Source: a virus
Direction: 5' to 3' (one strand)
Virus record (IMG/VR): IMGVR_UViG_3300020407_000014
Coordinates: 1 to 21,743 of that record
DNA: 21,743 bases
The position numbers were made by a program, and so were the translations under genes. The notes below the pieces were generated by a model, which worked only from the letters and a program-made list of their open reading frames with translations, was not told the origin of the DNA and did no database searches. Shown here in pieces: positions 4,474 through 21,743 of the stretch. Within the stretch, counting starts at the first letter, position 1. Every line of letters starts with the position of its first letter.

Positions 4474-4764
4474 TTATTGACCTATATATACATTAGGGCT
4501 ACCTGAGGTAGCATCTGGACCACAATGTGGGCCTCCTGGAATAGGACATAAGTTGTCTGGTTTGGCTGAATTGCCGTTTAGCACTACTAACTTACCACCT
4601 ACATATACATTTCTGCATTGTGCTGATAAGGCACCATCGCCATGGTTGTTTGGATCACCATTAACGCTGATTGGTTGACTGTTTACATACACGTTTTTGT
4701 GTGCTGATGCTATTGTTACTGCACCGCACTTACGTGAATCATTATTTCTATGAACCTGTGGCAC
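4474..4764 (-). CDS. PAAR-domain spike-tip protein (gp5.4-like)
   Basis: The 96-residue protein starts MPQVHRNNDSRKCG, the usual PAAR opening, then repeats short beta units such as NVYVNSQPISVNGD and NVYVGGKLVVLNG. Conserved Cys/His residues (Cys13, His41, Cys50, Cys73, His80, Cys81) could hold the metal at the tip. PAAR proteins form a pointed cone that caps the central spike of contractile phage tails and helps pierce the outer membrane. The start is GTG at 4764, lying inside the upstream gene with a 17-base overlap. The stop is one base from the next ATG. No better in-frame start is visible, and the GTG gives the expected N-terminus. Confidence 0.88.
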   Translation of the reverse strand: MPQVHRNNDSRKCGAVTIASAHKNVYVNSQPISVNGDPNNHGDGALSAQCRNVYVGGKLVVLNGNSAKPDNLCPIPGGPHCGPDATSGSPNVYIGQ

Positions 4765-8969: not shown

Positions 8970-9764
8970 TTATTTAAATGACTTTTGAATATATGTAAAT
9001 GTATGTGCATTTGTTATATCTGTTGAATCAAATGTAAGATACCACTTAGTGTTATTCACAGAGTCTGCTTCTAACCCAAATATAACTGGTACTGTTCCTG
9101 TTGATATGTCATATTCATCTTTTATAGATGCATTAGTAGGAGTACCTGTTTCGTCTATAAGAATCTTTATAGTTCCATGCCTAAATCCAGTAGTAACTTT
9201 AAGTGTGTAGTCAATTGTTACACTATTTTTGTTTGCTATTAAGAAAGCTACTTCCTTACCAGTATTAACATCGTCATTTAATACTTCAGCTGTGCCTGCC
9301 GCTTGTGATTTAGTAAAAGTAATCTGTTGTCTTGGATTCGGGAATGCTTCAGCATGATAGCCAAATTCTCTATTATAATTAAAATAAACTCTATCAACAT
9401 TAGTTACTATTGAAGGTACTCTAGCTAAGCCACTATCGAACTGTGCCATACCATCAATAAAAGTAATATTAGAACCGTCTATTATTGTATCAGTTGCACT
9501 ATCATGTGGATCAATTGTAACCCAATATGTAATTTCATTTAATAACTCAATAAAATCTTCAGTAATTGGAGTATTTCCAGCGGTGAATTCTACTTTCCAT
9601 AATGATGCTGTACTGTTTGTTACATCAATAGAACCTTGTGCAGGTTCCATTCCCATAAAAACTTTCTGTTCATCTGATGCTAGTCCTAGTTCACCTGGAA
9701 GTAATCTTGGCAAATCTGCTAGATTGCCTTTTCGTGCTGTCATTCGTGCTGTAATTGTTGCCAT
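8970..9764 (-). CDS. Putative virion structural protein
   Basis: The 264-residue protein begins MATITARMTARKGNLADLPR. The segment LLPGELGLASDEQKVFMG (about 21-38) is the short motif seen at the start of many phage tail and receptor-binding proteins. The rest is Thr/Asn-rich beta sequence with few charged blocks, as expected for a beta-sandwich tail or decoration protein. A good Shine-Dalgarno (AAGGAAG) and a NATAAATA late box lie just upstream, supporting late, structural expression. The specific role is unknown. A nine-codon frame (MTCTKCGKQ) begins three bases after its stop and is noted separately. Confidence 0.7.
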   Translation of the reverse strand: MATITARMTARKGNLADLPRLLPGELGLASDEQKVFMGMEPAQGSIDVTNSTASLWKVEFTAGNTPITEDFIELLNEITYWVTIDPHDSATDTIIDGSNITFIDGMAQFDSGLARVPSIVTNVDRVYFNYNREFGYHAEAFPNPRQQITFTKSQAAGTAEVLNDDVNTGKEVAFLIANKNSVTIDYTLKVTTGFRHGTIKILIDETGTPTNASIKDEYDISTGTVPVIFGLEADSVNNTKWYLTFDSTDITNAHTFTYIQKSFK

Positions 9765-9787
9765 ATTTCTTCTTCCTTATAATAAAG

Positions 9788-9795
9788 TATTTATG
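9788..9795 (-). promoter_or_regulatory. T4-type late promoter box (CATAAATA)
   Basis: CATAAATAC on the minus strand overlaps the stop of the nuclease gene and lies 23 bases before the ATG of the virion-like protein at 9764, followed by AAGGAAG. Spacing and position match T4 late promoters, where a TATAAATA box stands alone without a -35. It would uncouple late expression of the virion gene from the early nuclease. Confidence 0.6.
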
Positions 9796-10480
9796 ATAAA
9801 TTATAAAATTTCTCTAATCTCTCTGCCCATTTTAATTCATATTCTGGAAATTCATCTGGTCCACATTCAAACAGTTGCCATTGACAATCACCACTGCACA
9901 TAAAGATAGCAATACGGCTAATATCAGTGCCATACATCTCATTATGTGCAATTGCATAAGCGGCGCCTTGTAGGAAATAATCGTCAATCCATTCACGCTT
10001 CTTAGGCTTATTAGTTTGTTTAAAGTCCATAATAGTAGGCTTTCCCTTATACACACCAACTAAGTCTGTTGTACCTGCATATAATTCTTTTGCTACTAAA
10101 TTTACTTCTGTACCCCATAATTCATCAATATCATTTTCAATGTTTTCAACAACAACTTGCGCCATTGCTTTAGCCTGCCTATGTACTATATTGTTACCAG
10201 GATTATAAGTTTCGTATTCTCCAAGAGCCCAATGTTCAAGTATATTGTGCATTACTGTTCCACGATTTGCGGCAGTAGTTGTAATGCGTTGTGCTTCTTC
10301 TTTACCTACACGTTTTCGCCAAGCGGCAAGTCCAGCACGTTTTTCTGCTGGTTGTGTATCACTTAATATTGTTGTGACACTTGGAACAGGGTCGCCCCAA
10401 GGGTTTTGATATAGACGTTTACCATCTACACTTGTTCTTTTAAATTTTTTGTAATGGTAAGGACTATTAATTTCTGGCAT
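9791..10480 (-). CDS. PD-(D/E)XK nuclease, Cas4/RecB-like exonuclease
   Basis: The 229-residue protein carries the motif series of the RecB/Cas4 nuclease branch: RGTVMH with His78, GTTD with Asp139, IMDFKQ with Asp152 and Lys154, and FLQGAAYAI with Gln171 and Tyr175. These bind the metal and form the active site that cuts DNA. There is no helicase part and no iron-sulfur cysteine cluster, so it is a stand-alone nuclease as found in many marine T4-like phages. Likely roles are degrading host DNA or processing phage recombination ends. The start at 10480 has no Shine-Dalgarno, and the promoter at 10487-10515 places the transcript start on the A of this ATG. Confidence 0.88.
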   Translation of the reverse strand: MPEINSPYHYKKFKRTSVDGKRLYQNPWGDPVPSVTTILSDTQPAEKRAGLAAWRKRVGKEEAQRITTTAANRGTVMHNILEHWALGEYETYNPGNNIVHRQAKAMAQVVVENIENDIDELWGTEVNLVAKELYAGTTDLVGVYKGKPTIMDFKQTNKPKKREWIDDYFLQGAAYAIAHNEMYGTDISRIAIFMCSGDCQWQLFECGPDEFPEYELKWAERLEKFYNLS

Positions 10481-10486
10481 AGAGTA

Positions 10487-10515
10487 AGTATACTATTATT
10501 CTGACAATATGTCAA
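10487..10515 (-). promoter_or_regulatory. Sigma70-like promoter, apparently leaderless
   Basis: TTGACA (10510-10515), a 17-base spacer and TATACT (10487-10492) form a near-perfect promoter. Six bases separate the -10 from the ATG at 10480, so the expected +1 is the A of the start codon. The -35 is embedded in the last codons and stop of the upstream hydrolase gene. With no Shine-Dalgarno before the ATG, a leaderless mRNA is predicted. Confidence 0.7.
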
Positions 10516-11239
10516 CGACTCTGGGCAAAATATAATTGTCAAATACCCATTGATTAGCAAACGGACTCCAGTGACTATCTGTTTCAGAAACAGAAAGTCC
10601 TGCATCAAATATTTTTTTGCTTGGTTCCCATGCAACCTTTGCAGGATTAATTCCAAAAGCCCTTTGAAGTTGTCTACATGCACTTTCGTCAGCTGACCTG
10701 TTAACTGAGTCGACTTCTAGTAATAAACTAAGTTTTAATATATGCTTAAAATTATAAAGTGAAGCCATATTTTCATACCATTTATCATTATGATCACGCT
10801 GAGCACCAGACAATGCTTTATTGCTCAATGATTCAGTTATTGAATTCTTTACAACTTGCGGTATTAGATTGGTATCATTGCCTGTGAAAAAAACGTTTGT
10901 ACCACTAGCAGTGCTATGTGGACTAAACCAAGCAAGATCTTCTAATATTAATTCAAAATACCTATTATTGACTTCTTTTAATTTGAAATTAAATTCATTA
11001 TCAGAAATTAATTGTAATGCTCTATGATTAAATGTTGCATTAATAATAATAACATCTATATTTCTTATTTTTGCATCAAGTAAACATAATTGATAATAAT
11101 CATATCCTCGACCGCCAGAGGCATAATTATAATATTGATGTTGTGGGAAGTGTTCTGACAACAAATAGGTCCAACTATTTTTCTGTTGTCCTTCTTGATT
11201 GTATGCTAAATAACTATCACCAATGAATGCTACACGCAT
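10496..11239 (-). CDS. SGNH/GDSL-type hydrolase-like protein
   Basis: The 247-residue protein has the blocks of the SGNH fold. GDSY at 7-10 supplies the nucleophile Ser9, ASGGRG (40-45) the block II Gly, INATFNH (66-72) a block III Asn, and DSHWSPFANQ (221-230) the Asp-x-His of the triad; the DxHW form resembles the AlgX/DHHW branch that handles acetylated sugars. There is no signal peptide, so it would act in the cytoplasm or in the virion. Possible roles are removing or adding acyl groups on surface glycans or phage components. It lies between speD and the nuclease. AGGA precedes the start by about 10 bases. The fold is a motif-based inference. Confidence 0.68.
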   Translation of the reverse strand: MRVAFIGDSYLAYNQEGQQKNSWTYLLSEHFPQHQYYNYASGGRGYDYYQLCLLDAKIRNIDVIIINATFNHRALQLISDNEFNFKLKEVNNRYFELILEDLAWFSPHSTASGTNVFFTGNDTNLIPQVVKNSITESLSNKALSGAQRDHNDKWYENMASLYNFKHILKLSLLLEVDSVNRSADESACRQLQRAFGINPAKVAWEPSKKIFDAGLSVSETDSHWSPFANQWVFDNYILPRVVDILSE

Positions 11240-11251
11240 AATTTTATAGTC

Positions 11252-11647
11252 CTATCGTAATTTATTTTTTGATTCTATTGTAGTTAGACTTTTTTCTCTA
11301 TCTAAGAATTTGTATTCTAGTTTTACTGGTTCAAATGCTTCATCAATCATATCGAATATAGTTTGTGGGTTAAATTCAGCACATGAATAAACATCCATTT
11401 GCAATAATCCAGGATCAACTTCGTCCCAAATATGTACTGCAATGTGTGATGTTTCTATAATTACTACGCCAGTTAGTCCTTTATTTCCTGGTACATCAAC
11501 ATATGCTGTAATAGGGCCTTGACATATGTCCATTTTTATTTCTTGTACTACTTTTACTAGCCATGAATGCAACCACTTAGGATCAGTTGGTGTTTTGTTG
11601 GTTTCTGCTCTTATAATAAGATGCTTGTGTTTTATTATGTCAGCCAT
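11252..11647 (-). CDS. speD: S-adenosylmethionine decarboxylase-like proenzyme
   Basis: SpeD makes decarboxylated S-adenosylmethionine, the aminopropyl donor for spermidine. The 131 residues match the short bacterial/archaeal class: GVVIIETSHIAVHIW covers the self-cleavage site with pyruvoyl-forming Ser67 and His72, and MDVYSCAEFNP carries Cys89, equivalent to the catalytic Cys of the Thermotoga enzyme. The residue before Ser is Thr66, where bacterial proenzymes usually have Glu, so processing may differ. Marine T4-like phages are known to carry speD, perhaps to supply polyamines for DNA packaging. It sits one base after the upstream stop. Identity is likely; activity is unproven. Confidence 0.85.
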   Translation of the reverse strand: MADIIKHKHLIIRAETNKTPTDPKWLHSWLVKVVQEIKMDICQGPITAYVDVPGNKGLTGVVIIETSHIAVHIWDEVDPGLLQMDVYSCAEFNPQTIFDMIDEAFEPVKLEYKFLDREKSLTTIESKNKLR

Positions 11648-11648
11648 T

Positions 11649-12266
11649 TTACCAATAGATATACCATTTAAACGTTCTATTAGTAGACGAATTTGTTAAT
11701 CTTTCTATTTTATAACCTAAGTTATTGAATTCTCTAATTACTTCTTCCATTTGATTTTGAAGAGCACGATCTGCTGTAGTACCTTGCCAAACTTCAAAAT
11801 AACTTACACTAGTTGGGTTTGTTAAACTGTATACACCTGCTGTAAAACCTAAAGAAGCATTTGCTGTTCCAGCTCCTATTTCATATGTCCATGTTTGGCC
11901 TGCGGCATCTTCTACAGTTAAAACTAAGTAGCCACCAGCTTTTGATGCTGTTAATCCTGTAACACCTGCATCATTAATATCTGCAATAACTGCATTAAGT
12001 GATGTTCCTGTTGTTCCTAAAGTTACTGTTTGACTATCAATAATAAGAGTTTCACCTACAGAAATTGTGGGGTTGATTACTGTACCAGTGTTTGCTACAC
12101 TTGGAGTAGAGATTGTCATTGTAGTACCGTCATCTACGTATGCTTCAAACTTTCCTAATCCGCTTTCAGTGATGACTTTTTCCATGATAGCTTGTGTTTC
12201 TTTATACACAATCATGTCTTGTGATGCTTTTGCTCTTGCCTGTGATGCGTTTAATCCTACACTCAT
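11649..12266 (-). CDS. Putative virion protein with bacterial-adhesin-like middle
   Basis: This 205-residue protein begins MSVGLNASQARAKASQDMI. A helical N-terminus (to about 45) is followed by a Gly/Thr/Val-rich beta domain (about 45-150, including ASKAGGYLVLTVEDAAG). It ends in a helical, charged tail (RALQNQMEEVIREFNNLGY) and an aromatic C-terminus (WYIYW). The middle resembles repeat domains seen in flagellin/hook and phage surface proteins. I do not recognise a named family. It overlaps the upstream gene by four bases (ATGA) and is followed after one base by speD. A structural role is inferred from composition and neighbours. Confidence 0.65.
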   Translation of the reverse strand: MSVGLNASQARAKASQDMIVYKETQAIMEKVITESGLGKFEAYVDDGTTMTISTPSVANTGTVINPTISVGETLIIDSQTVTLGTTGTSLNAVIADINDAGVTGLTASKAGGYLVLTVEDAAGQTWTYEIGAGTANASLGFTAGVYSLTNPTSVSYFEVWQGTTADRALQNQMEEVIREFNNLGYKIERLTNSSTNRTFKWYIYW

Positions 12267-12589
12267 TTGCTTAACTCTTTATCAACTTGCTTCTTAGCCA
12301 TTGCTTTAACCTTTTTCTTATTTTTTTCTGGATCTACTTTATTTAGATTTGAAGCTTGTAAACTTGCTGTATTAAAATAAACTGTACCATCTTTAATATT
12401 ATTAACAATTGGTAGATTAGTTATCTCATCAAATAGAGACTCGTCATCAACATCTACACCCATTGACGTTAGTTCTTTGACTAATGCATCAAGTGGTATC
12501 TGGTTAACTCCTTCACTACTTAATATCGATAATAGATCAATAACCTTTGAATCTACTACTGAAATTTCAAAAAGATCAGCGTATCTCAT
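12263..12589 (-). CDS. Hypothetical protein (108 aa)
   Basis: The protein begins MRYADLFEISVVDSKVIDL and has two parts. A compact, mostly helical acidic region (to about 80, with DALVKELTSMGVDVDDES) is followed by a Lys-rich tail (KNKKKVKAMAKKQVDKELSK). No known motif is present. The first part could be a small winged-helix-like domain, which is only a guess. It starts five bases after the upstream stop and overlaps the following gene by four bases, so it belongs to a coupled late gene block. Confidence 0.65.
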   Translation of the reverse strand: MRYADLFEISVVDSKVIDLLSILSSEGVNQIPLDALVKELTSMGVDVDDESLFDEITNLPIVNNIKDGTVYFNTASLQASNLNKVDPEKNKKKVKAMAKKQVDKELSK

Positions 12590-12593
12590 TGCT

Positions 12594-13343
12594 TTACTTC
12601 TTTAATACCGCGAATGCTTGTTTTAAGACTTCTTTATTAATTTTACCATCAGCCTGTGCTTCTTTAACTAAACGTAATGCATTAAGATATTTGTCTTCTT
12701 TCATCTCTCTGCCGTCTATGTCTGTTTCTGCACTTGCAGCGTCTGCGCCTTCAAAATCATCAACAGGAGTTTCTATGTCATCTAATGGAGCGTCCATTGG
12801 AGCGTCCATAGGTTCTTCCATACCCATATCTGTTGCTGGTGCTTGGCCTTGAGCTACTAAAACTGCATCGCTTACTTGTGCGTTTGCTGATTTAACTGCT
12901 TCTAGAGCTGAACCGATTGCCGCTTCTGCTGATGCATTAAATGTATCTGCTTCTGCTGTACCAACTTCTTCTTTCATTGCGTTAGTAATGCTCATTAGTT
13001 CTTCTACTTGCATACTGGCTAAATTTTCAGCCATTTTTTGTAGATCGTCTGCCATGTTTTTCGCTGCTAAAAGGACTTCTGCTGAATCTAATTCGTCTTC
13101 CATTATTGGATTTTGTGCCATAACTGTTTCAATACCTTCTAGAACTAGCAATAACTTCTGATATTGCTTATCGTTTACTGCAACACCACTTTCACGTAGT
13201 GCTTTAATCTTTTGTTCAGTAACAGTTTTTACTTTAGTTAATTTTGCATTACCTGCATTAAAGTTAAAACTCGTACCAAATACTTCTTTAAGAACAGAAT
13301 CTAATTTGTTTAGACTGTTTACTTGTAAATGTTTTAATTCCAT
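12594..13343 (-). CDS. Acidic Ala-rich protein, possible head-core or scaffold
   Basis: The 249 residues begin MELKHLQVNSLNKLDSVLK. A basic helical N-terminal region (about 1-60) precedes a long Ala/Glu/Met-rich helical region (about 80-165). A strongly acidic linker (about 170-210) includes a duplicated MDAP (a tandem 12-base repeat), and the protein ends in a basic helix (DGKINKEVLKQAFAVLKK). This composition resembles prohead core proteins such as T4 gp22, but I see no direct match. A GGGG Shine-Dalgarno precedes ATG at 13343, and a CATAAATA late box lies 34 bases upstream, so late expression is likely. Confidence 0.65.
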   Translation of the reverse strand: MELKHLQVNSLNKLDSVLKEVFGTSFNFNAGNAKLTKVKTVTEQKIKALRESGVAVNDKQYQKLLLVLEGIETVMAQNPIMEDELDSAEVLLAAKNMADDLQKMAENLASMQVEELMSITNAMKEEVGTAEADTFNASAEAAIGSALEAVKSANAQVSDAVLVAQGQAPATDMGMEEPMDAPMDAPLDDIETPVDDFEGADAASAETDIDGREMKEDKYLNALRLVKEAQADGKINKEVLKQAFAVLKK

Positions 13344-13377
13344 ATCATTACCCCACTAGAGTTTTTATTATATATTG

Positions 13378-13385
13378 TATTTATG
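13378..13385 (-). promoter_or_regulatory. T4-type late promoter box (CATAAATA)
   Basis: CATAAATAC starts within a few bases after the TAG stop at 13387, in a 43-base gap between genes, and 34 bases before the ATG at 13343. The rest of the gap is AT-rich up to the GGGG Shine-Dalgarno. The match to NATAAATA and the intergenic position support a late promoter for the acidic head-core-like protein. Confidence 0.6.
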
Positions 13386-13386
13386 C

Positions 13387-14004
13387 CTACAGGGCTGATT
13401 TGATTTGGTTTTTAATGTCTCTCATCTTATAAACCGCATGACTTTGCTTTGCCATAGCAATATCTAACTTATTAGTTTCAGTAATTGTCTTACATCTTAC
13501 TCTATGTTCAGCTGCTTCTGTCAATGCACTTCTATATTTACAATCAAGCTCTAATAATCTATCAACCTTACTATTATTATCAAATAATAAACCTTTTACA
13601 ATAGCCATCGCTGTTTCAAACAATGCTATTTGCTTGTATAAAGTTTTATTGCCTTCTTTGATGTTATAAAACGTCTTTTTTATACCTGGTACAACTCGCG
13701 CCTTTTCTAACACAATTTCAAATTTCTCTACTTTTACTGAATTACCTTTTTTACTCATTGCTGTTAATTCAACATCGTTACGTGATTCTTCTATTATATC
13801 TTTTGTAACTTTTGTCGTTGTTTCATCGAGTTTTTGCAAAATTTTTAGCATCCCCTGAGCGTTCTTACTCACACTACCTAATACAGTAGGAGATGGTTTG
13901 TTTTTTTCATTTTTTAATTTTTGAGCTGCTGTTGGCTCTTTTGATGCAGATTCATTAAGTTTGTTAATAATATCCATCATTCCTTGCACTTCTTTTGTTG
14001 GCAT
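13387..14004 (-). CDS. Hypothetical protein with duplicated N-terminal motif
   Basis: This 205-residue Lys-rich protein contains the same motif twice: VQGMMDIINKLNE (6-18) and AQGMLKILQKLDE (49-61), fitting QGMxxIxxKLxE and separated by a Pro/Lys-rich linker. The remainder (about 75-205) is helical and basic, with two Cys residues. Both motifs end in LxE, the cleavage pattern of T4 gp21 prohead protease, so an internal head role is possible but unproven. Two copies suggest binding to a repeated partner such as a capsid or scaffold. The start overlaps the upstream stop (TAATG). Confidence 0.68.
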   Translation of the reverse strand: MPTKEVQGMMDIINKLNESASKEPTAAQKLKNEKNKPSPTVLGSVSKNAQGMLKILQKLDETTTKVTKDIIEESRNDVELTAMSKKGNSVKVEKFEIVLEKARVVPGIKKTFYNIKEGNKTLYKQIALFETAMAIVKGLLFDNNSKVDRLLELDCKYRSALTEAAEHRVRCKTITETNKLDIAMAKQSHAVYKMRDIKNQIKSAL

Positions 14005-14213
14005 TATATGCTCCCTTTCATTCGTTCAAAATAAACTTTATTATTCTCCACTATCTTTTTAACAATATTCTTGTTAACTAGGCTTTGAATTAGGTATACT
14101 TCACGTTCAGATAAATCATCTTTACATGTACGTTCTAATAAATTCTCGTACATTTCGCATTCGTGAAGCGAAATAAATGTTGGTATGCCGCCGGGAGTTT
14201 CAATGCTTTTCAT
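14004..14213 (-). CDS. Hypothetical protein (69 aa)
   Basis: This short protein, MKSIETPGGIPTFISLHECE at its start, has a central charged helix with two Cys residues (HECEMYENLLERTCKDD). It ends in VNKNIVKKIVENNKVYFER, a shape that would fit a small winged-helix or helical-hairpin domain. No family is recognised. It begins two bases after the upstream stop, following GGTGG as ribosome site, and overlaps the next start by one base. Its coupling on both sides argues that it is real. Confidence 0.65.
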   Translation of the reverse strand: MKSIETPGGIPTFISLHECEMYENLLERTCKDDLSEREVYLIQSLVNKNIVKKIVENNKVYFERMKGSI

Positions 14214-14215
14214 TA

Positions 14216-15799
14216 TTAACCACCCATTGCTAATTGTTTTAATCGTTCAATTTCTTGTGCATTCATGTTGGCTTGTTCTGCATTAGCGTTAGATTGATTT
14301 GAGTTATGAGCTCTTTCTATATCATCTGGATCTTCACTTCCAGCTCTTACTGCGCCTTGCCCTGTTGCTTGTTTTACGCCACCTGCTACTGTTCTTTCTA
14401 TTCCTTTTGCATCTCTGTTCTGATCTTGTACTGTAATATTGTAACGTCTATTTGCTACGTTTGAATTCTGTTTGTTTACTGTTGCTCTACTAGATTGTGC
14501 TGTGGCTGCTGTTCCATATCCAATTTCTTTTAATTCTTCTTCTGATTCATTAGGATGTCTTTTATACAGGTCATCAAAGTATTCGGCATCTGTTTCTTCT
14601 CTATGACCTAGTTTATCTAATTTTTCATATAAACTTGCCACTAATTCAAGTATTGCTTGGTCACTTAAATTCATTGTTTCTCTTTGAGCCTGTAAACGAT
14701 AATCTGGGCCTTCTACTACTTTTTCTTCTGTGACACCTGCTAATACTTTTATTTGATCTGCTGTCATTGTTTTTGATCTTTCAAAATCATCACCTTGTAA
14801 TCTGTGTTGGTATGGACCACGTCCAAGACTAATATCTTCTTTTTCTAGTTCGTTTCCTAAATCATATCCTAAATCTTCACTATTTTTGTAAATGCTAAAG
14901 TGGTCATTGCCAATATAAACATCATTATCGCCAATTTGTACGTCTAGCATATCATCACCTGTTTCAGCGTGATAATAGTCTTCAATTTTATCCATTAGTC
15001 CATGCATTGTTGAATCTTGAAGATCATCACCGTGTGGCGTTTCTGTTGAATACACATCTGCTGGTGCTTCTTTAATTCCTGCTAATTTTTTTAGTCTACT
15101 TGTATCTTCACCTGCCATTATTGGCTCACCCATTGGTTCACCTGCGTAATAATTATTAACAGTTGTGTTGCCATCTTTTTCTTTTTCCTTATCACGTGTC
15201 ATGTAATCTTTAAGTTTTTTGCCACCATATATCGCCGCAATAACGGCTGCAACTGGAAGTTTATGCTTCCATATGGCCTTTCCAAGCTCATCAACAGATG
15301 CTGCATCTAACCACCCGCCTACAAAGTCTGTAAGCATATTAAACACTTCAGCTAGGCTTGTAAACGTTAAACCAGCTGAAAACCATTTTAAAGTCTTGCC
15401 TGGGTTATTTAGAACCTTTGTACTTGTTGACACTACGCTCTTAGCAACTTTATCGCTAGTTTTTGTGACTATAGGTGTCGCGGCTTGTTTGCCTTTCCAA
15501 ATCTTCTCCCAAACCCACTTTAGAATCTTGACTTTTCCTTCGTCTAATTGTTGTATATCAAATTCGTCTATTCGTCGCATATCAAGTTCAAATGCATTTT
15601 CTGATACAGCACTTAAATCCATAATTTCTGAAAATGCATCATTGTCGTCTGCTTTTATTGAGTTAATAAGTTTTAATGTTTCTGAAAAGGATAAATTTCT
15701 TAATTGTTCTGATACTTGATCTTTTGTAAGTTCCATTCCGAACTTAACATTTGCAAAGTCTATTACTGTATCAATTGTGCTATTATTTATTACGTCCAT
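14216..15799 (-). CDS. Large hypothetical virion/head-associated protein
   Basis: The 527-residue protein is a mosaic. Residues 15-70 form an acidic helical domain (FGMELTKDQVSEQL, LKLINSIKADDNDAF) of a type I recall from other marine T4-like phage proteins. Residues 90-135 are basic. Residues 139-165 and 181-193 are hydrophobic and may be membrane-active. Residues 200-360 are acidic and carry two copies of a short motif, LKKLAGIKEA (236-245) and IKVLAGVTEE (350-359). The C-terminus is Asn/Gln-rich and ends ERLKQLAMGG. Hydrophobic segments inside a large late protein could mean an ejected or internal virion component. GAGGG precedes the start at 15799. Function is unknown. Confidence 0.65.
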   Translation of the reverse strand: MDVINNSTIDTVIDFANVKFGMELTKDQVSEQLRNLSFSETLKLINSIKADDNDAFSEIMDLSAVSENAFELDMRRIDEFDIQQLDEGKVKILKWVWEKIWKGKQAATPIVTKTSDKVAKSVVSTSTKVLNNPGKTLKWFSAGLTFTSLAEVFNMLTDFVGGWLDAASVDELGKAIWKHKLPVAAVIAAIYGGKKLKDYMTRDKEKEKDGNTTVNNYYAGEPMGEPIMAGEDTSRLKKLAGIKEAPADVYSTETPHGDDLQDSTMHGLMDKIEDYYHAETGDDMLDVQIGDNDVYIGNDHFSIYKNSEDLGYDLGNELEKEDISLGRGPYQHRLQGDDFERSKTMTADQIKVLAGVTEEKVVEGPDYRLQAQRETMNLSDQAILELVASLYEKLDKLGHREETDAEYFDDLYKRHPNESEEELKEIGYGTAATAQSSRATVNKQNSNVANRRYNITVQDQNRDAKGIERTVAGGVKQATGQGAVRAGSEDPDDIERAHNSNQSNANAEQANMNAQEIERLKQLAMGG

Positions 15800-15803
15800 A
15801 ATA

Positions 15804-16091
15804 TTACCCTCTCGCTTTATTTAGCCTTGCTACAATACGACTTGCTGGATTTAATCGTTTTGTTCTCTGTGCTTTCTTCGTCATTCTTGCGCCTTTGGCT
15901 GCTTTTGTTCTTCGCATTACAAATCTCTTTTTGAGATTTATCGGAGCCGCACATTGCGAAGGATTCGCAACTGGCCTCCCTTTACGTGGCCCTACTGTAC
16001 AACGAAATGCTCGTACAACTTTATTTCCTCTTTTACGAAATATTACTTTCGCCTCAGAAATAATAGTATTGTATGATTCATTAAGTAACAT
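15804..16091 (-). CDS. Very basic protein, likely internal head protein
   Basis: The 95 residues are extremely rich in Arg and Lys (for example MRRTKAAKGARMTKKAQRTK), fitting a DNA-binding protein packed with the genome. The N-terminus SYNTIISEAKV (6-16) closely matches the capsid-targeting peptide of T4 internal proteins, TYQEFIAEARV in IPIII as I recall it. Cleavage after the IxE motif (Ile11-Ser12-Glu13) by the gp21-type prohead protease would release the basic body. A conserved-looking core (FRCTVGPRKGRPVANPSQC) has two Cys residues. The start lies 6 bases after the upstream stop, with a GATAAATA box just before it. Confidence 0.75.
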   Translation of the reverse strand: MLLNESYNTIISEAKVIFRKRGNKVVRAFRCTVGPRKGRPVANPSQCAAPINLKKRFVMRRTKAAKGARMTKKAQRTKRLNPASRIVARLNKARG

Positions 16092-16094
16092 TAC

Positions 16095-16102
16095 TATTTA
16101 TC
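16095..16102 (-). promoter_or_regulatory. Late-promoter-like box (GATAAATA) at start of basic gene
   Basis: GATAAATAG overlaps the stop codon of the coiled-coil gene and ends only three bases before the ATG at 16091. If used as a late promoter, initiation would fall at or inside the start codon region, so the mRNA would be nearly leaderless or the box may serve another role. It matches NATAAATA exactly but the spacing is abnormal. Confidence 0.3.
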
Positions 16103-16388
16103 CACCACTTATAGCCAACGCACCGGCTGCATTTAAATTTAATAGCAATACCACTACAGTTGAAAGCAATCCTGCAATAACTGTTGCTGCCGCACCAATA
16201 ACTAGTTTATTACTAGATAATGTACTTGCTGTTTGTTTATCTGCTACTTTAGTAAGAGCTTCTGTAAGAGAATCCATTTTGGCTTCTAATCTGTTTAATT
16301 TTTCTTCTAACACGCGATATCTCTCCGCACATAAATCTACATGTGCCTCTAGATTTTCACGCTCAAGTCTTGACTGATTCATTGCCAT
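16098..16388 (-). CDS. Coiled-coil protein with C-terminal membrane segment
   Basis: The 96-residue protein begins MAMNQSRLERENLEAHVDLC. Residues 5-50 are a long amphipathic coiled coil (RYRVLEEKLNRLEAKMDSL). Residues 62-85 form one hydrophobic membrane helix (VIGAAATVIAGLLSTVVVLLL), followed by a short small-residue tail. This layout recalls haemolysin XhlA-type and similar phage membrane proteins, which can take part in lysis or in anchoring to the inner membrane. No catalytic motif is present. A tandem late-promoter pair and a hairpin sit upstream in the 85-base gap, so strong late expression is likely. Holin function is only a possibility. Confidence 0.7.
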   Translation of the reverse strand: MAMNQSRLERENLEAHVDLCAERYRVLEEKLNRLEAKMDSLTEALTKVADKQTASTLSSNKLVIGAAATVIAGLLSTVVVLLLNLNAAGALAISGG

Positions 16389-16434
16389 ATTTTGTTCTCA
16401 CAATCTTTAGCAGCGTCTTATTAGAGCTGATTTA

Positions 16435-16460
16435 ATATAAGTACATCATTGCACTTATAT
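16435..16460 (-). other. Stem-loop at predicted 5' end of a late transcript
   Basis: ATATAAGT and ACTTATAT form a perfect 8-base-pair inverted repeat, extended by G-U and C-G to 10 pairs around a six-base loop. There is no run of T after it, so it is not a standard terminator. It begins where transcripts from the late boxes at 16462-16478 should start, so it may protect the 5' end or control translation of the coiled-coil/membrane gene. Confidence 0.55.
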
Positions 16461-16461
16461 G

Positions 16462-16478
16462 TATTTATCGTATTTATA
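16462..16478 (-). promoter_or_regulatory. Tandem late promoter boxes
   Basis: The minus strand reads TATAAATAC then GATAAATAC, two boxes nine bases apart. The first is the exact T4 late consensus. The pair overlaps the TAA stop of the gene ending at 16474 and precedes an 85-base gap before ATG 16388. This is the best late promoter in the window and marks a new late transcription unit. Confidence 0.75.
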
Positions 16479-16929
16479 TATTTTCGCTAAATTTAAAGTA
16501 TGTATTAGTCTTTACTGTACTTGTATCAACACTTTCAGGATTAATAACTGCTGTTTCATCTAAAGTTATATGAATAGGCATTGTATCAAAGTCTTGTTTT
16601 AGAAAATAAACATCATCATTGTCTTTTTTCCAAGCATCTGCTGTTTCACTAGCAAATTTAAGAACCCATACGTTATGTAAACCGGTAAAATTACTACCAA
16701 ATTCATAGTCAGATAAATCTTTTGCAGTTAATATCGTAACACTGCTCAATACAGGTTGAGATCTTAAACTTACACTTTGAATAAAAGTATTTAAATTTTG
16801 AGCTTGAAAGAATCCGTTAGCGTTAACTTTAGGACTAACTATACCTGAATCGGTGATATCTATTAGTGTATAAACTGTATAAAAATCTGTTGACCCTGTT
16901 AAAACCTCTACCGGTCTACTAATACCCAT
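16474..16929 (-). CDS. Hypothetical protein, probable virion component
   Basis: The 151-residue protein begins MGISRPVEVLTGSTDFYTV. It is acidic and beta-rich, with segments such as YTLIDITDSGIVSPKVNANG and VWVLKFASETADAW and no Cys. From memory similar proteins occur in cyanophage and pelagiphage T4-like genomes without known function. Two bases separate it from the upstream stop. A structural or assembly role is inferred from composition and location only. Confidence 0.65.
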   Translation of the reverse strand: MGISRPVEVLTGSTDFYTVYTLIDITDSGIVSPKVNANGFFQAQNLNTFIQSVSLRSQPVLSSVTILTAKDLSDYEFGSNFTGLHNVWVLKFASETADAWKKDNDDVYFLKQDFDTMPIHITLDETAVINPESVDTSTVKTNTYFKFSENI

Positions 16930-16931
16930 AG

Positions 16932-17666
16932 TTACATACCAGTCATTTTACCAGCTGTATAACCTGCTGCGAAAGCCGCTGCTCCACGTACAATACGTTG
17001 CTTGATTGTTTTCTTTTCTTTTCCATCAATATTTAATCCACCATCTTCAGAATACTTTTTAAATGTTGGCATTAAATCACTACGCCTAGCATTTATTCTA
17101 TAATGTTTGTTTATTTGTGTGGCCGCTAGTTTTTGTTGCGTAGTACTTAGATTAGTCCAATCGCCAACTAACCTTCTTGCTGCTCTCAATTTTGGATCTT
17201 GAATGGCTAACTGTTTTTCTAGTTTATAAAAGAATGCTCTTGCTTGTCCTGGCATTACTTTTCCAGTTTCTAGTTGTTTTAAAAACTGTCTCATCTTAGG
17301 TTGATTTATTTTTATTTTAGCGAGTAATAACTTATCTGCTGGTGTACTGTCAACTAATCCTTCAGGTTTTACAAGTGCAAAAAGTGTTTGGTATACATCT
17401 GTACCACTTGGACTAGCTCTTCCAAACCCGCCATACATACCTGTTCTTCGTGCATATTTTTGTGCTTCTGGAGCATATTTATAATCATTTGCCATAGCAT
17501 AAAGACTCATCAATCCTACAAATAAATGATCTGAGAGCTGTCTAACACCTGAACCTTGTAGCTGATGTTTTGTTTTAAACATACGAGCTTCACCTAGGGA
17601 TTGCATAAATTCTAATCCCTTTTTATTGCTTTCTTCTGAATATTGTTTTACTATATCATTACTCAT
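16932..17666 (-). CDS. Hypothetical basic protein (244 aa)
   Basis: The protein begins MSNDIVKQYSEESNKKGLE. It is helical and basic, with a Tyr/Gly-rich region (about 60-90, YARRTGMYGGFGRASPSG) and a C-terminal Ala/Gly segment (VRGAAAFAAGYTAGKMTGM) that could contact membrane or pack as a glycine-zipper helix. Near the N-terminus, SLGEAR (23-28) contains LxE followed by Ala, a possible prohead-protease site, but such triplets also arise by chance. The start overlaps the upstream gene by four bases (ATGA). No family is recognised. Confidence 0.63.
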   Translation of the reverse strand: MSNDIVKQYSEESNKKGLEFMQSLGEARMFKTKHQLQGSGVRQLSDHLFVGLMSLYAMANDYKYAPEAQKYARRTGMYGGFGRASPSGTDVYQTLFALVKPEGLVDSTPADKLLLAKIKINQPKMRQFLKQLETGKVMPGQARAFFYKLEKQLAIQDPKLRAARRLVGDWTNLSTTQQKLAATQINKHYRINARRSDLMPTFKKYSEDGGLNIDGKEKKTIKQRIVRGAAAFAAGYTAGKMTGM

Positions 17667-17860
17667 ATATTATTCTCTGTTACAATCTTTTTACATGTAT
17701 TTGTTGCATACTTTTTAAACCATCTTGGAAAAAAAGCATGAATAAAAACTGCACATGCTGCCATTTCCATATGGAAAGCAATACTTACTGCATGTTTAAA
17801 GTGTTGCCAACGAGTCATTCCAGCTTCTTCTAAGTGCTGTTTACTCGATTTACTAAACAT
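17663..17860 (-). CDS. Small membrane protein, DUF6356-like
   Basis: The 65 residues begin MFSKSSKQHLEEAGMTRWQH. A short charged head is followed by a moderately hydrophobic segment (about 23-45, ending AVFIHAFFPRWF) and a basic tail with Cys. The signature HxEEAGMTxWQHFxHA, then VFIHAFFP, matches from memory the small DUF6356 family (HPxSVGExYxEH, then HALFP) found in bacteria and marine phages. The function of that family is unknown. AAGGAAAG supplies the ribosome site, overlapping the end of the upstream gene. Inner-membrane location is likely. Confidence 0.7.
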   Translation of the reverse strand: MFSKSSKQHLEEAGMTRWQHFKHAVSIAFHMEMAACAVFIHAFFPRWFKKYATNTCKKIVTENNI

Positions 17861-17861
17861 T

Positions 17862-19058
17862 TTATCTTTCCTTTGCCATATTAGCCGCTGTAAAGCCGGC
17901 TCTATTAACTAATTTAACATCTTTGTCTACTACATACCCTTCGCCGCCTCTTTGGCCTGCTGTGTATGCTTCTATGTCTGCCTTCTGTGCATCCAATGCC
18001 TTAATAACTTCATTTTTTACTTTTTTAATTCCTTTGATAAAATTAAATGTTGCATTAAATCCATCTATATTACTATTTATGTATTCTCCTAGACGTTGTT
18101 TCTTAGGTGCTGACAATTTACTATTATCAACCCATTGCATGAAATCTGAACCTAAGTTATCTAGCCCGCCTGTTTTAACTGATGAATTAATGTATGCATA
18201 TAGTACTTTACCAAAGTCTGCCATTTTTAATTCAGGTGGTACATTAAACAATTTATCAATTGCTCCTGCATTTTTACTTAGGTAATTTTCTAACTCGTCT
18301 ACTGCTGGAATATCTACACCTGGTGATTTTGTTACCATTGCTGGTGGCATAATATAAGTTTGCCCACCTTGAAACTGGCTCATATCTACATTACTTTTTT
18401 GACCGTCTAGTCCAATGGATTGATGTACTACTACGCCAACATCGCTGTTTACTATTTTTTTACCAATGTCGCTTTCAGCATTTACTGCATATGTTGTAGT
18501 ATTTGGCGTGAATGTTATTTTGTTATCTTTTACTTGAGGTTTTGTTAACCAAAGTAAGTCACCATGTACATACCCTCTAAAGCCTGTAGGTACAGTACTT
18601 TCTACTCTGTCCCATATATTTCTCATTTTACTTGCAAATTCTTTACGATCTGGATCTGGTTTTCCTGTACCTCTACTCAATAGCATGTTTTCTAATGCAT
18701 CACTACTAGTAACTTTCCCATCATATCCTTTTGCAGTAAATCCACTTTTGTCAGTGAGTACAAATACACCGTTTTCATTTCGCCCAAAAATAACAGCTGG
18801 TGAGCCGTCCCATTTAATAGTGACTGAATTAGGTTGTTGTTCTACTTGGTGTAATGCGGCAATGGCTTTTTTAGCACCTACACTGCCTGCCTGGCCGTCA
18901 TCAAGGCCTAGAATAAGGTCTTCTAAATGCTGAATTCTAGCATTCTCATTTAGATTTTTTGCTGTTGGAGTATATAAACCTTTACCTTTTAGTCTAATAT
19001 TTCGTAAAATTCTAGGTTTACGTTTTTTAGTTCCGGCTAAAATGTCTTCTATTTTCAT
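17862..19058 (-). CDS. Ligase-like nucleotidyltransferase-fold protein (DUF6267-like)
   Basis: The 398-residue protein carries motifs of the covalent nucleotidyltransferase (DNA/RNA ligase, capping enzyme) superfamily. Motif I is TIKWDGSPAVIFG with Lys82-x-Asp84-Gly85, the usual adenylated lysine. A motif III-like RGYVHGDLLW lies at 161-170, a motif IV-like GEGYVV at 372-377, and a motif V-like VKLVNR at 381-386. Between III and IV are about 200 residues, far more than in simple ligases, so there may be an inserted domain (about 190-360). The basic N-terminus (KKRKPRILRN) could bind nucleic acid. It may match the phage family DUF6267, from memory. Neighbours are late genes, not replication genes. 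Enzyme activity is inference from motifs. Confidence 0.72.
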   Translation of the reverse strand: MKIEDILAGTKKRKPRILRNIRLKGKGLYTPTAKNLNENARIQHLEDLILGLDDGQAGSVGAKKAIAALHQVEQQPNSVTIKWDGSPAVIFGRNENGVFVLTDKSGFTAKGYDGKVTSSDALENMLLSRGTGKPDPDRKEFASKMRNIWDRVESTVPTGFRGYVHGDLLWLTKPQVKDNKITFTPNTTTYAVNAESDIGKKIVNSDVGVVVHQSIGLDGQKSNVDMSQFQGGQTYIMPPAMVTKSPGVDIPAVDELENYLSKNAGAIDKLFNVPPELKMADFGKVLYAYINSSVKTGGLDNLGSDFMQWVDNSKLSAPKKQRLGEYINSNIDGFNATFNFIKGIKKVKNEVIKALDAQKADIEAYTAGQRGGEGYVVDKDVKLVNRAGFTAANMAKER

Positions 19059-19303
19059 TTAGAGCCTCTAATTTTCTTAACACCGCGGTTAAATCTCTCT
19101 GGGTCTCTATTTTTTATACTTAACATGATACGTTTAGTTAGGTCCTGAGCGGTATCATCGTCATAATTAGATTCTATCATTTCTAATATGTTAATAATAC
19201 TACTAATAGCATTATTACCTTTACTTTCTAGTATTGCTGTTTTAGATTTAACAGGTGCTAAAGAATTAATTTCTTCTAATAAGCTACGAGTACGTTTTTT
19301 CAT
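19055..19303 (-). CDS. Hypothetical protein (82 aa), first gene of late block
   Basis: The protein begins MKKRTRSLLEEINSLAPVK and is a basic helical N-terminus followed by an acidic helix (INILEMIESNYDDDTAQDL) and a basic tail (RDPERFNRGVKKIRGSK). From memory similar small proteins occur in marine T4-like phages beside the ligase-like gene. SLLEE at 7-11 includes an LxE triplet. GGGG precedes the ATG at 19303. It overlaps the ligase-like gene by four bases (ATGA), so the two are probably coupled and may work together. Confidence 0.68.
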   Translation of the reverse strand: MKKRTRSLLEEINSLAPVKSKTAILESKGNNAISSIINILEMIESNYDDDTAQDLTKRIMLSIKNRDPERFNRGVKKIRGSK

Positions 19304-19315
19304 GTCTATATCCCC

Positions 19316-19330
19316 AGGTAATAGTTACCT
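19316..19330 (-). other. Hairpin before the Shine-Dalgarno of the first late gene
   Basis: AGGTAA-CTA-TTACCT is a perfect 6-base-pair stem with a 3-base loop. It begins at the expected 5' end of transcripts from the late box at 19337-19344 and ends directly before the GGGG ribosome site of the 82-residue gene. It may stabilise the mRNA end or keep the ribosome site open. Confidence 0.45.
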
Positions 19331-19336
19331 ATATAG

Positions 19337-19344
19337 TATTTATC
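19337..19344 (-). promoter_or_regulatory. Late promoter box (GATAAATA) at replication/late boundary
   Basis: GATAAATAC overlaps the TAG stop of the helicase gene and lies 34 bases before ATG 19303. It matches NATAAATA and stands at the switch from primase/helicase genes to the late block, as expected for a late promoter. Confidence 0.62.
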
Positions 19345-20753
19345 TAACTATTGCTTCTTTTGAGCATACTACGTAATTTGTCATGCCCTTCAATGGTACT
19401 TTCAACAACACTATTTTCTGCAATATTCTTTTCTTGATGTGAAACTTTGTTTTTTGCCTTAATCTTTTCAAACATAGCACTAGAATTACTCATAGTATCG
19501 TGTTTCTCATCTTCGTCTAAGTCACTAATACGTAACCCTGCTATATCAAATTTAAGATCTACTTTATGCCCAACACCACTGCTACTACGTGTTTTCATAA
19601 ATTGTACTTGATAACGCCCACGTTCACGCATCGCTTGACTTGTAAAGATACCAATTACATTATCTGCTGTTTGTACTTTACTTAAACCACCTGCAATGTG
19701 CGAATGATCGTATTCTACTTCTTCTACTGCACCTCTATTTAACTGTGATGCTGTTGCAAACAATATATCATGTTCTACTGCAAAATTACGCATTTCTTCT
19801 GATACAAACTTATCTTTAATATATAAATCACTTGGATTAACTTTACTTTGTGCTGGCATCATAAGATCTAAGTAGTCAATACACATTGCATCAACTTTAA
19901 CATCATTTTTAACTTCGTATTCACGCAAATAACTAGTAATGTTATTAATTGTAATACCGTTTGGAAGTTGTACAATTTGTAGTTTGCCTGCTTTCTTGCC
20001 TTTCATACGTACTTTTAAATCTACATCATCTGCATTTTTAAATACTGTACGAGTATCATATCCAGTAATCATGCTGTCTAATCGCATACTAGATAATTCT
20101 TCACTAAGTTCCAAAGTAATGTATACAACATTTAATCCTGCAACCGACCAATTAAGTGCTAAATTCTGCAAGAACAAACTCTTACCACCACCCGATGGTG
20201 CAGCAAATATGTTTAGTTCGCCTCTATTAAATCCACCAAAAAGTTTTTTATCAATATCTTTCCAACCTGTGCTTACACCACCACGCAAATTACGAACACG
20301 TTCAATACGCTCTGCTGGTGATTCCCAATAGTCAGTACCCATATGTTTAGCCAGTCCAATTTGAACTGCTTCTTTGATTCTTCGTTCAACTGGGCCATAC
20401 TCACCTCGTTCTAGCATGTCTGCACTTGCTAAAATTGCTGCTTCTAATGCTTTATGTTTACAAAATGTTTCAAATTCATCAATAAACCATTTATGATGTC
20501 TATCATCTACATCTTTAAGTTCTTGTAACTCGAGCCCTGTTGCCGCTAGAATTTGCTCACGTGTAGGCAATGCACTATACCCAGTAACATGTTCTTGTAT
20601 AAATGCTACTCCTTTACGTAATTCTCTATCAAAATATAATGGATCTATAATTCCATTAACTCTAGCGAATAGATCTTTATCTTGTGCTAGAAATTCAACA
20701 AACAATCGTTGTAAGTCTACATTATACTCTTTCGCTTGTGACTGTTCTCTCAT
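19344..20753 (-). CDS. 41: Replicative DNA helicase, gp41/DnaB-like
   Basis: This 469-residue protein is a DnaB-family hexameric helicase that unwinds DNA at the phage fork. The N-terminal helical domain (1-140) is followed by the RecA-like motor. Walker A is APSGGGKS (185-192, Lys191), the catalytic Glu215 is in TLELSEE, Walker B is CIDYLD with Asp293, the sensor is SQLNR (336-340), and an arginine finger region is MKTRSSSG (386-393). The charged C-terminal tail is typical for interaction with primase or loader. Its ATG overlaps the primase stop by four bases, so the two primosome subunits are translated together. A possible own promoter lies inside the primase gene. Confidence 0.96.
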   Translation of the reverse strand: MREQSQAKEYNVDLQRLFVEFLAQDKDLFARVNGIIDPLYFDRELRKGVAFIQEHVTGYSALPTREQILAATGLELQELKDVDDRHHKWFIDEFETFCKHKALEAAILASADMLERGEYGPVERRIKEAVQIGLAKHMGTDYWESPAERIERVRNLRGGVSTGWKDIDKKLFGGFNRGELNIFAAPSGGGKSLFLQNLALNWSVAGLNVVYITLELSEELSSMRLDSMITGYDTRTVFKNADDVDLKVRMKGKKAGKLQIVQLPNGITINNITSYLREYEVKNDVKVDAMCIDYLDLMMPAQSKVNPSDLYIKDKFVSEEMRNFAVEHDILFATASQLNRGAVEEVEYDHSHIAGGLSKVQTADNVIGIFTSQAMRERGRYQVQFMKTRSSSGVGHKVDLKFDIAGLRISDLDEDEKHDTMSNSSAMFEKIKAKNKVSHQEKNIAENSVVESTIEGHDKLRSMLKRSNS

Positions 20754-21743
20754 TTACAATATTTCCTCATTAATAATTCAATTTTTGTTGGATTAGTTTC
20801 AGCACTATTTATTATACTCTTTATTGTATACAATCTTCCGTGTTTTGTCAAGGAATCACTTGCATCTTTACAATCTTTCCATTCTGGAAAAGAAACACTC
20901 CAACCGTGCTTTATTGCCGCCTTACACATTAACTTACCTGCTTCATCTGCGTCTGGTAATACAATAATTCGTTTGTTCAAACTGTGCAATATATCTGCTT
21001 GGTCATCATTTATGTTATTACTGCCTATTGCACATCCATCTGTTACTATTGCATCAAGTTGTCCTTCAGATACAATAACAACTTCTTTATTGTGTGTTTG
21101 TCTATCTAAACCATACACAAAATCATTCTTAGGTTGCTGATTATAGTATTTAGGCATTTTTGCAGGAATATTGTCTCCTGCCCATCTTGCTGTATAACCA
21201 ACTACTTTACTTTTATATGTAAACGGCAAAATAAATCTTTTGTTAACTCTACCTTGTTTTTTACTAGGGCTCCACATAAACCTATCATCAGTAATATCAA
21301 ATCCACGATCAGTTAAGTATGTTACCGCGGCTGTCCAATCAGCGTCTGGTTCAGTGAACTCCATAAATGGCTTGGCATCTTCTGGTAGTTCTTTTTCGTC
21401 CCAATCAATAACTAAATTTTTACGCCTTTTAGTTTTTATTAATAAGGTTGCTACATCTTGTTCACGTAACAATTCAAGTTGTATACGTTGTATATCAGCT
21501 TCATCGGCACCTAATGTTGTTAATAGTTGCTTTAATCTTACTGATATTCTACTTTGTGGACTCCAACCTGTTTTAAAGTTACAATTAAAACAATTATACT
21601 GAAACTTTCCTTCATCAAAATGAAATCCGCCTCTGCCTTTTGTATCTGGTCTACTTTGCCCATTCCTTACACACATTGGACAGTTACCACTAATCCAACC
21701 ACTAGGATTAGATCGCCAGTTAGTAGGAACCAGGGCTCTGACG
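20750..21743 (-). CDS. 61: DNA primase, gp61-like (N-terminus outside window)
   Basis: The frame is open from the window edge (first complete codon at 21742-21740), giving 330 visible residues. The ATG at 21676 is internal: the Cys residues of a zinc finger lie on both sides of it (CPMC at 21-24 and CFNC at 51-54 of the visible part), so the true start is beyond 21743. A Toprim domain follows, with Glu226 in VVIVSEGQLDAI and Asp264/Asp266 in VLPDADEAG. Such primases make short RNA primers for lagging strands and pair with the gp41 helicase, encoded next. The stop overlaps the helicase ATG. Confidence 0.94.
   Translation of the reverse strand, partial: VRALVPTNWRSNPSGWISGNCPMCVRNGQSRPDTKGRGGFHFDEGKFQYNCFNCNFKTGWSPQSRISVRLKQLLTTLGADEADIQRIQLELLREQDVATLLIKTKRRKNLVIDWDEKELPEDAKPFMEFTEPDADWTAAVTYLTDRGFDITDDRFMWSPSKKQGRVNKRFILPFTYKSKVVGYTARWAGDNIPAKMPKYYNQQPKNDFVYGLDRQTHNKEVVIVSEGQLDAIVTDGCAIGSNNINDDQADILHSLNKRIIVLPDADEAGKLMCKAAIKHGWSVSFPEWKDCKDASDSLTKHGRLYTIKSIINSAETNPTKIELLMRKYCK
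20823..20851 (-). promoter_or_regulatory. Possible sigma70-like promoter inside primase, for helicase
   Basis: TTGACA (20846-20851), a 17-base spacer and TACAAT (20823-20828) lie within the 3' part of the primase gene. Predicted initiation near 20816 gives a leader of about 63 bases before the helicase ATG. The ten bases TTGACAAAAC are identical to those in the promoter at 1155-1183. Being inside a coding region lowers confidence, but spacing and both boxes fit the other three sites. Confidence 0.5.

Follow-up and report, generated by a model that had tools for sequence, protein, structure and literature searches.

A small basic protein of marine T4-like jumbo phages is predicted to be a gp21-processed, DNA-associated internal head protein

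The window, a stretch of 21,743 nucleotides from the IMG/VR virus record IMGVR_UViG_3300020407_000014, encodes a small basic protein that is well supported as a predicted gp21-processed, DNA-associated internal head protein. With a probability of about 0.62, we place this small protein inside the head of a marine T4-like jumbo phage, where it would be cut by gp21 and retained on the packaged DNA. The proposed mechanism is as follows. By comparison with T4, the 13-residue leader would join the basic protein to the prohead core, and the phage gp21-type protease would then cut after Glu13, a step for which conservation argues well. The released Glu-free basic domain would not be cut further and would stay in the head on the packaged DNA. 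The mature domain may help to organise the core or the DNA and to neutralise charge; its DNA binding is suggested by charge. The protein may also enter the host together with the DNA. The features are collected in Table 1.

Table 1. Features of the window discussed in the text (a slash within a sequence marks a predicted cut).
Feature	Position	Strand	Remarks
Gene for the 95-aa basic protein, candidate internal head protein	15804..16091	(-)	ATG 16089-16091, stop 15804-15806
Leader, residues 1-13 (MLLNESYNTIISE), up to the predicted gp21-type cut E13/A14	16053..16091	(-)	P1, P3 and P1' conservation; pLDDT
Predicted mature protein, residues 14-95: beta hairpin, then helices; invariant Cys31 and Cys47	15807..16052	(-)	
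C-terminal basic stretch with KKAQRTKRLNPAS, residues 64-86; weak likeness to T4 gp68 tail	15834..15902	(-)	
Shine-Dalgarno-like GGTGGA, 9 bases 5' of the ATG	16101..16106	(-)	Sequence reading only
Neighbour gene, 244 aa, second candidate processed head protein, site LGE26/A27	16932..17666	(-)	
Leader of the 244-aa neighbour, residues 1-26	17589..17666	(-)	
Syntenic block: primase, helicase, virion proteins, PD-(D/E)XK nuclease, virion protein	8970..21676	(-)	Common to PA5oct and family loci

The earlier note had described a 95-residue, Arg/Lys-rich protein with SYNTIISEAKV at residues 6 to 16. The open reading frame and its translation agree exactly, and the basicity is confirmed: residues 14-95 (82 residues) hold 27 Lys/Arg and no Asp/Glu, and leader residues 1-13 no Lys/Arg and two Glu. 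The putative site reads ISE13/A14. Internal proteins of T4 are likewise basic, having leaders of 10-19 residues that are cut after L/I-x-E (PMC9026906). The peptide TYQEFIAEARV, attributed in the note to T4 IPIII, is actually that of T4 IPII; IPIII has TYQEFIAEASV. An AlphaFold2 model (38 sequences) reached a mean pLDDT of 85, with residues 1-11 below 50, strands at residues 14-21 and 24-31, and helices at 44-48, 53-80 and 82-94. The leader is thus predicted to be disordered and the body to be folded from residue 14. Fold searches yielded no convincing match among solved structures (PDB E no better than 2.5, VIA Z at most 2.5), and the one strong match in a viral structure library was A0A248SJ00 (108 aa, 45% identity, TM 0.83), which agrees in length and identity with a protein of Salicola phage SCTP-2.

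The first scan of viral contigs found 116 relatives, and profile scans found at least 527 and at least 555. The protein has no family match in Pfam, PHROGs or PDB sequence searches, and a profile search revealed no homologue in PA5oct, Atu_ph07, Phosso, CBB, RaK2, XacN1 or T4. Among the matches listed for annotated phage isolates, the sole one is SCTP-2 gene 12 (ASV44027.1, hypothetical protein), a true homologue with 45% identity over 80 residues that lies in the corresponding block; it differs in lacking a leader (its first residues are MAK) and in carrying an extra acidic tail at the C-terminus. A single scan of bacterial genome contigs matched three marine MAG contigs, which carry the same gene block and are probably misbinned phage. 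Across 35 representatives, the invariant body residues are R30, C31, G34, R36, V41, C47, P50, K54, K78, S84 and N91. The net charge of the body ranges from +23 to +33 across the family, and 91 of 93 unique members have no Glu in it, a depletion that may reflect extreme basicity alone.

The strongest evidence for processing comes from the way the site is conserved. Glu occupies P1 in 91/91 unique leader-bearing homologues (93 unique sequences in all) and in 35/35 representatives, which answers the earlier proposal to align homologues for an IxE site, though P3 is mostly Val (70, with 15 Ile and 6 Leu among the 91) and two homologues have no leader. P1' is Ala in 76, Ser in 11 and Thr in 6 of all 93 unique sequences. 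Sixteen frames fell outside the cut-site count, the search pattern having been too strict, and those printed also have Glu at that position. Mean identity among the 35 representatives is 32% in the leader, aligned backwards from the cut site with P4-P1 excluded, vs. 65% in the body. Leaders as dissimilar as MLLNESYNTIISE, MRLDEVTDDLITE, MNLNELTSEEPVVE and MKLGQLSEEAVTE all end at one common point; homologue starts were set at the nearest upstream ATG, and a few leaders may exceed the listed length. The two leaderless homologues, in SCTP-2 and contig L215, open with M-A-K, precisely where the mature protein is predicted to begin, and since both do without the leader, it appears to be dispensable in some members. 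The earlier note had also seen a T4 IPIII-like targeting peptide. The cut site of that peptide is conserved, but beyond it only the window's own clade resembles the IPII/IPIII peptide (Tyr at P7, hydrophobic P4), whereas members outside that clade have MNLNELTSEEPVVE/AQ or MKLGQLSEEAVTE/AK. As judged from these sequences, the part in common with T4 is therefore the cut site and not the entire targeting peptide.

A motif of this kind in one protein means little, because a lax [ILVM]xE[AGST] occurs near the N-terminus of about 6% of proteins by chance and conserved N-terminal sites show no genome-wide excess between two related genomes, G001 and G002 (16 seen vs. 17.7 expected, in a list from which the gene of the 95-aa protein is missing, probably dropped by a simple gene filter). 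The bare motif was accordingly rejected as a diagnostic, and a generic M-x-[IL]-[ND]-E N-terminal tag was set aside, its enrichment being only weak. What stands above chance is the conservation of the site while the rest of the leader drifts. Most control genes of the block score 0-0.57 for an N-terminal site; the gene at 19055-19303 reaches 0.75, but its protein is strongly conserved and has no variable leader. In window gene 13387-14004, an LNE/[SA] site that seemed a good candidate in three genomes turned out not to persist across the family.

The window is a 21.7-kb fragment that itself lacks gp21 and gp23, and both gp21 (PF03420, Peptidase S77) and gp23 (PF07068) are present in 7/9 related records. 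One relative, G002, has the T4-like order 20 - 64 aa - 306 aa acidic - 21 - 22 - 23 at 50-56 kb, in which two small core genes separate 20 from 21, with the gene of the basic protein at 122 kb, outside the head cluster. The predominance of Val at P3 counts against gp21 cleavage when set beside the L/I-x-E motif of T4. However, the relatives' gp21 carries IITE/T, IVTE/A or IIVE/S near its own N-terminus, and their capsid proteins have LSE/S or LTE/S where T4 gp23 has LTE65/A. Val at P3 and Ser, Thr or Ala at P1' therefore fit these phages, on the premise, drawn from T4, that these sites of gp21 and gp23 are themselves cut. In giant phages of the phiKZ/SPN3US type, a prohead protease likewise cleaves head proteins after Glu (PMC9026906, PMC10052503); these phages belong to a different lineage with a diverged protease, and the likeness is one of description.

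The block of primase, helicase, small-gene set and nuclease is kept across the family and corresponds to 145.9-160.1 kb of PA5oct, where most genes of the small set are annotated ESI-MS/MS, i.e., as MS-detected virion proteins. Because the gene of the basic protein itself was not detected in PA5oct and the other isolated jumbo phages, we infer its virion location from the neighbouring genes. Its SCTP-2 counterpart has homologues of window genes 16474-16929 and 16932-17666 close by. N-terminal sites in PA5oct are commoner in MS-detected proteins (11/93 vs. 14/360, p=0.005), a list that also includes enzymes, possibly contaminants. The earlier proposal of a processed, DNA-bound internal protein thus gains from the invariant site, from gp21 and gp23 in relatives and from the virion-gene block, while its DNA-binding part stands as a suggestion drawn from charge.

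Several other genes of the window deserve mention in their own right. Directly upstream, the 96-residue product of 16098-16388 (-) contains the very conserved stretch LERxNLEAHVDLCAERY, has a membrane-like helix at its C-terminus and belongs to no clear family. An S-adenosylmethionine decarboxylase (11252-11647 (-); Pfam AdoMet_dc, E=7e-17) is an auxiliary metabolic gene within the virion-protein block; its homologue in G001 and G002 lies elsewhere in the genome. A subtilase (1219-2781 (-); Pfam Peptidase_S8, E=2e-32) is close to structural genes, and a PAAR-motif-like protein (4474-4764 (-); E=1e-4, below the curated cut-off) is a possible tail spike tip.

An unlikely alternative is that the protein is a prohead core protein like T4 gp68, acting on the core or on head size or shape while the prohead is built and mattering less once the virion is complete. 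Its C-terminal stretch KGARMTKKAQRTKRLNPAS resembles the tail of gp68: a C-terminal profile put T4 gp68 at the top of 830 T4 ORFs (E=9e-5 without and 0.22 with composition correction), and only 3/2000 shuffles of the gp68 tail reached the observed score (uncorrected). For four other non-Vibrio phages, including Acinetobacter and Aeromonas phages, 1-13/2000 shuffled tails scored as high (uncorrected), whereas gp68s of Vibrio phages showed no excess over shuffles. An hhalign comparison with the gp68 family (phrog_1049) gave P=0.0013-0.0017 over 20-23 columns, but a probability of only 15-18%. The profile similarity is limited to the C-terminal 20-25 residues, which are Lys/Arg-rich. Both proteins have an early Glu/Ala site (IPE21/A in gp68) and a basic C-terminal tail, with the segment KAQRTKRLNPA in gp68; gp68, however, has 141 residues with an extra acidic middle part, and its gene lies between 67 and 21 rather than outside the head cluster. 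Neither the relatives nor three cyanophage/pelagiphage genomes gave a match to phrog_3503, another head scaffolding family. We treat the gp68 link as a lead rather than as membership, and the weak likeness fits a core- or DNA-organising role. The expected fate of the two bodies also differs. T4 gp21 degrades gp22, gp67 and gp68 (PMC9958956), whereas a body free of Glu in nearly all members offers the protease no site, which favours a retained, DNA-associated head protein.

It is rather improbable that the protein enters the host with the DNA to serve in counter-defence or takeover, as T4 IPI does in blocking a host restriction enzyme, a role the earlier note had considered possible. Leader and processing do resemble those of T4 internal proteins, of which IPI blocks a restriction enzyme (PMC3012670), and the basic protein shares with IPI, IPII and IPIII a small size, basicity, a short N-terminal leader, a hydrophobic-x-Glu/Ala site and a phage with gp21. 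On the other hand, the internal proteins of T-even phages are diverse defence proteins having only the targeting sequence in common (PMC3012670), i.e., a shared peptide and divergent bodies. Here the arrangement is reversed, with a body conserved across hundreds of marine contigs and a variable leader, so that a constant head task fits better than a host-specific one. The gene also has a fixed place in a core block and not in a variable accessory locus. The protein is, moreover, much more basic than the T4 internal proteins, differs from them in its mostly Val P3, and has no detected body similarity to them, Pfam/PHROGs searches with the window protein having found no homology to the IPII/IPIII families (phrog_7857, phrog_5341). 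A conserved housekeeping role in the head seems more likely than host-specific counter-defence.

We give very little weight to a position in the virion but outside the head, e.g., in the tail or neck, with the conserved Glu site serving other processing: the location is indeed drawn from a block in which the PA5oct proteins detected by MS mostly bear no label beyond structural protein, but the cut site looks like those of gp21 and gp23 in these phages, and a body so basic and almost free of acidic residues suits the DNA compartment. Equally slight are the odds of a non-virion nucleic-acid-binding protein whose N-terminus resembles a cleavage site by chance. Small basic proteins are common, the lax motif arises by chance in about 6% of N-termini and packaging is something we infer, yet the site is invariant despite leader divergence, leaderless homologues start at the cut point, and the neighbourhood is one of virion genes.

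The 244-aa neighbour behaves in a comparable way. Its homologues have leaders of widely differing length ending in [LI]xE/[AS][RK]M[FY], and the site is kept in 94/104 unique N-termini. The SCTP-2 homologue starts MMFRS, adjoining the cut, so that in the SCTP-2 branch the homologues of both proteins are leaderless and begin at or next to the cut. A tentative idea, which we think more probably wrong than right, is that the two form a co-packaged pair whose leaders are exchangeable targeting tags, and that the SCTP-2 branch implies a second, leader-independent way into the head. The 244-aa neighbour also ends in a Gly/Ala-rich tail (RGAAAFAAGYTAGKMTGM).

Further candidates for processing were noticed along the way in related loci. 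The proteins of L108:12954-13451 (-) and L116:5115-5615 (+) start MKSYTEYLTE/AKK or MKTFKQYLTE/SNK, very like T4 MKTYQEFIAE/A, and match the PHROGs virion structural protein (7e-8) and internal head protein (1e-3). Three enzymes, a cytidylyltransferase-like (L112:18959-19567 (-)), a 5' nucleotidase-like (L121:6645-7529 (+)) and a zeta-toxin-like kinase (L106:2664-3353 (-)), have short N-terminal extensions with possible Glu cuts (MLINEILKE/S, MKINQIINE/A and MKIHDILEREQVLE/G, respectively) and are possible packaged enzymes. The peptide [IL][KR]xLAG[IV] ends the scaffold protein in the gp22 position (NLKKLAGISN, ELRRLAGIK) and turns up again, in small counts, in the next window gene downstream and in a virion protein of PA5oct; the loci are window 14216-15799 (-), L113:15505-16608 (+), and PA5oct 84724-85830 and 155221-155847. 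It is possibly a shared core-binding peptide.

These data suggest that marine jumbo phages, too, process proteins of the DNA compartment by T4-type proteolysis. They also suggest that the head, rather than an arms race with the host, can be the reason why a packaged protein is conserved. The leaderless homologues provide a natural experiment on the need for such tags. In general, the analysis offers a testable role for an unannotated protein family with more than 500 matching contigs in environmental viral sequence.
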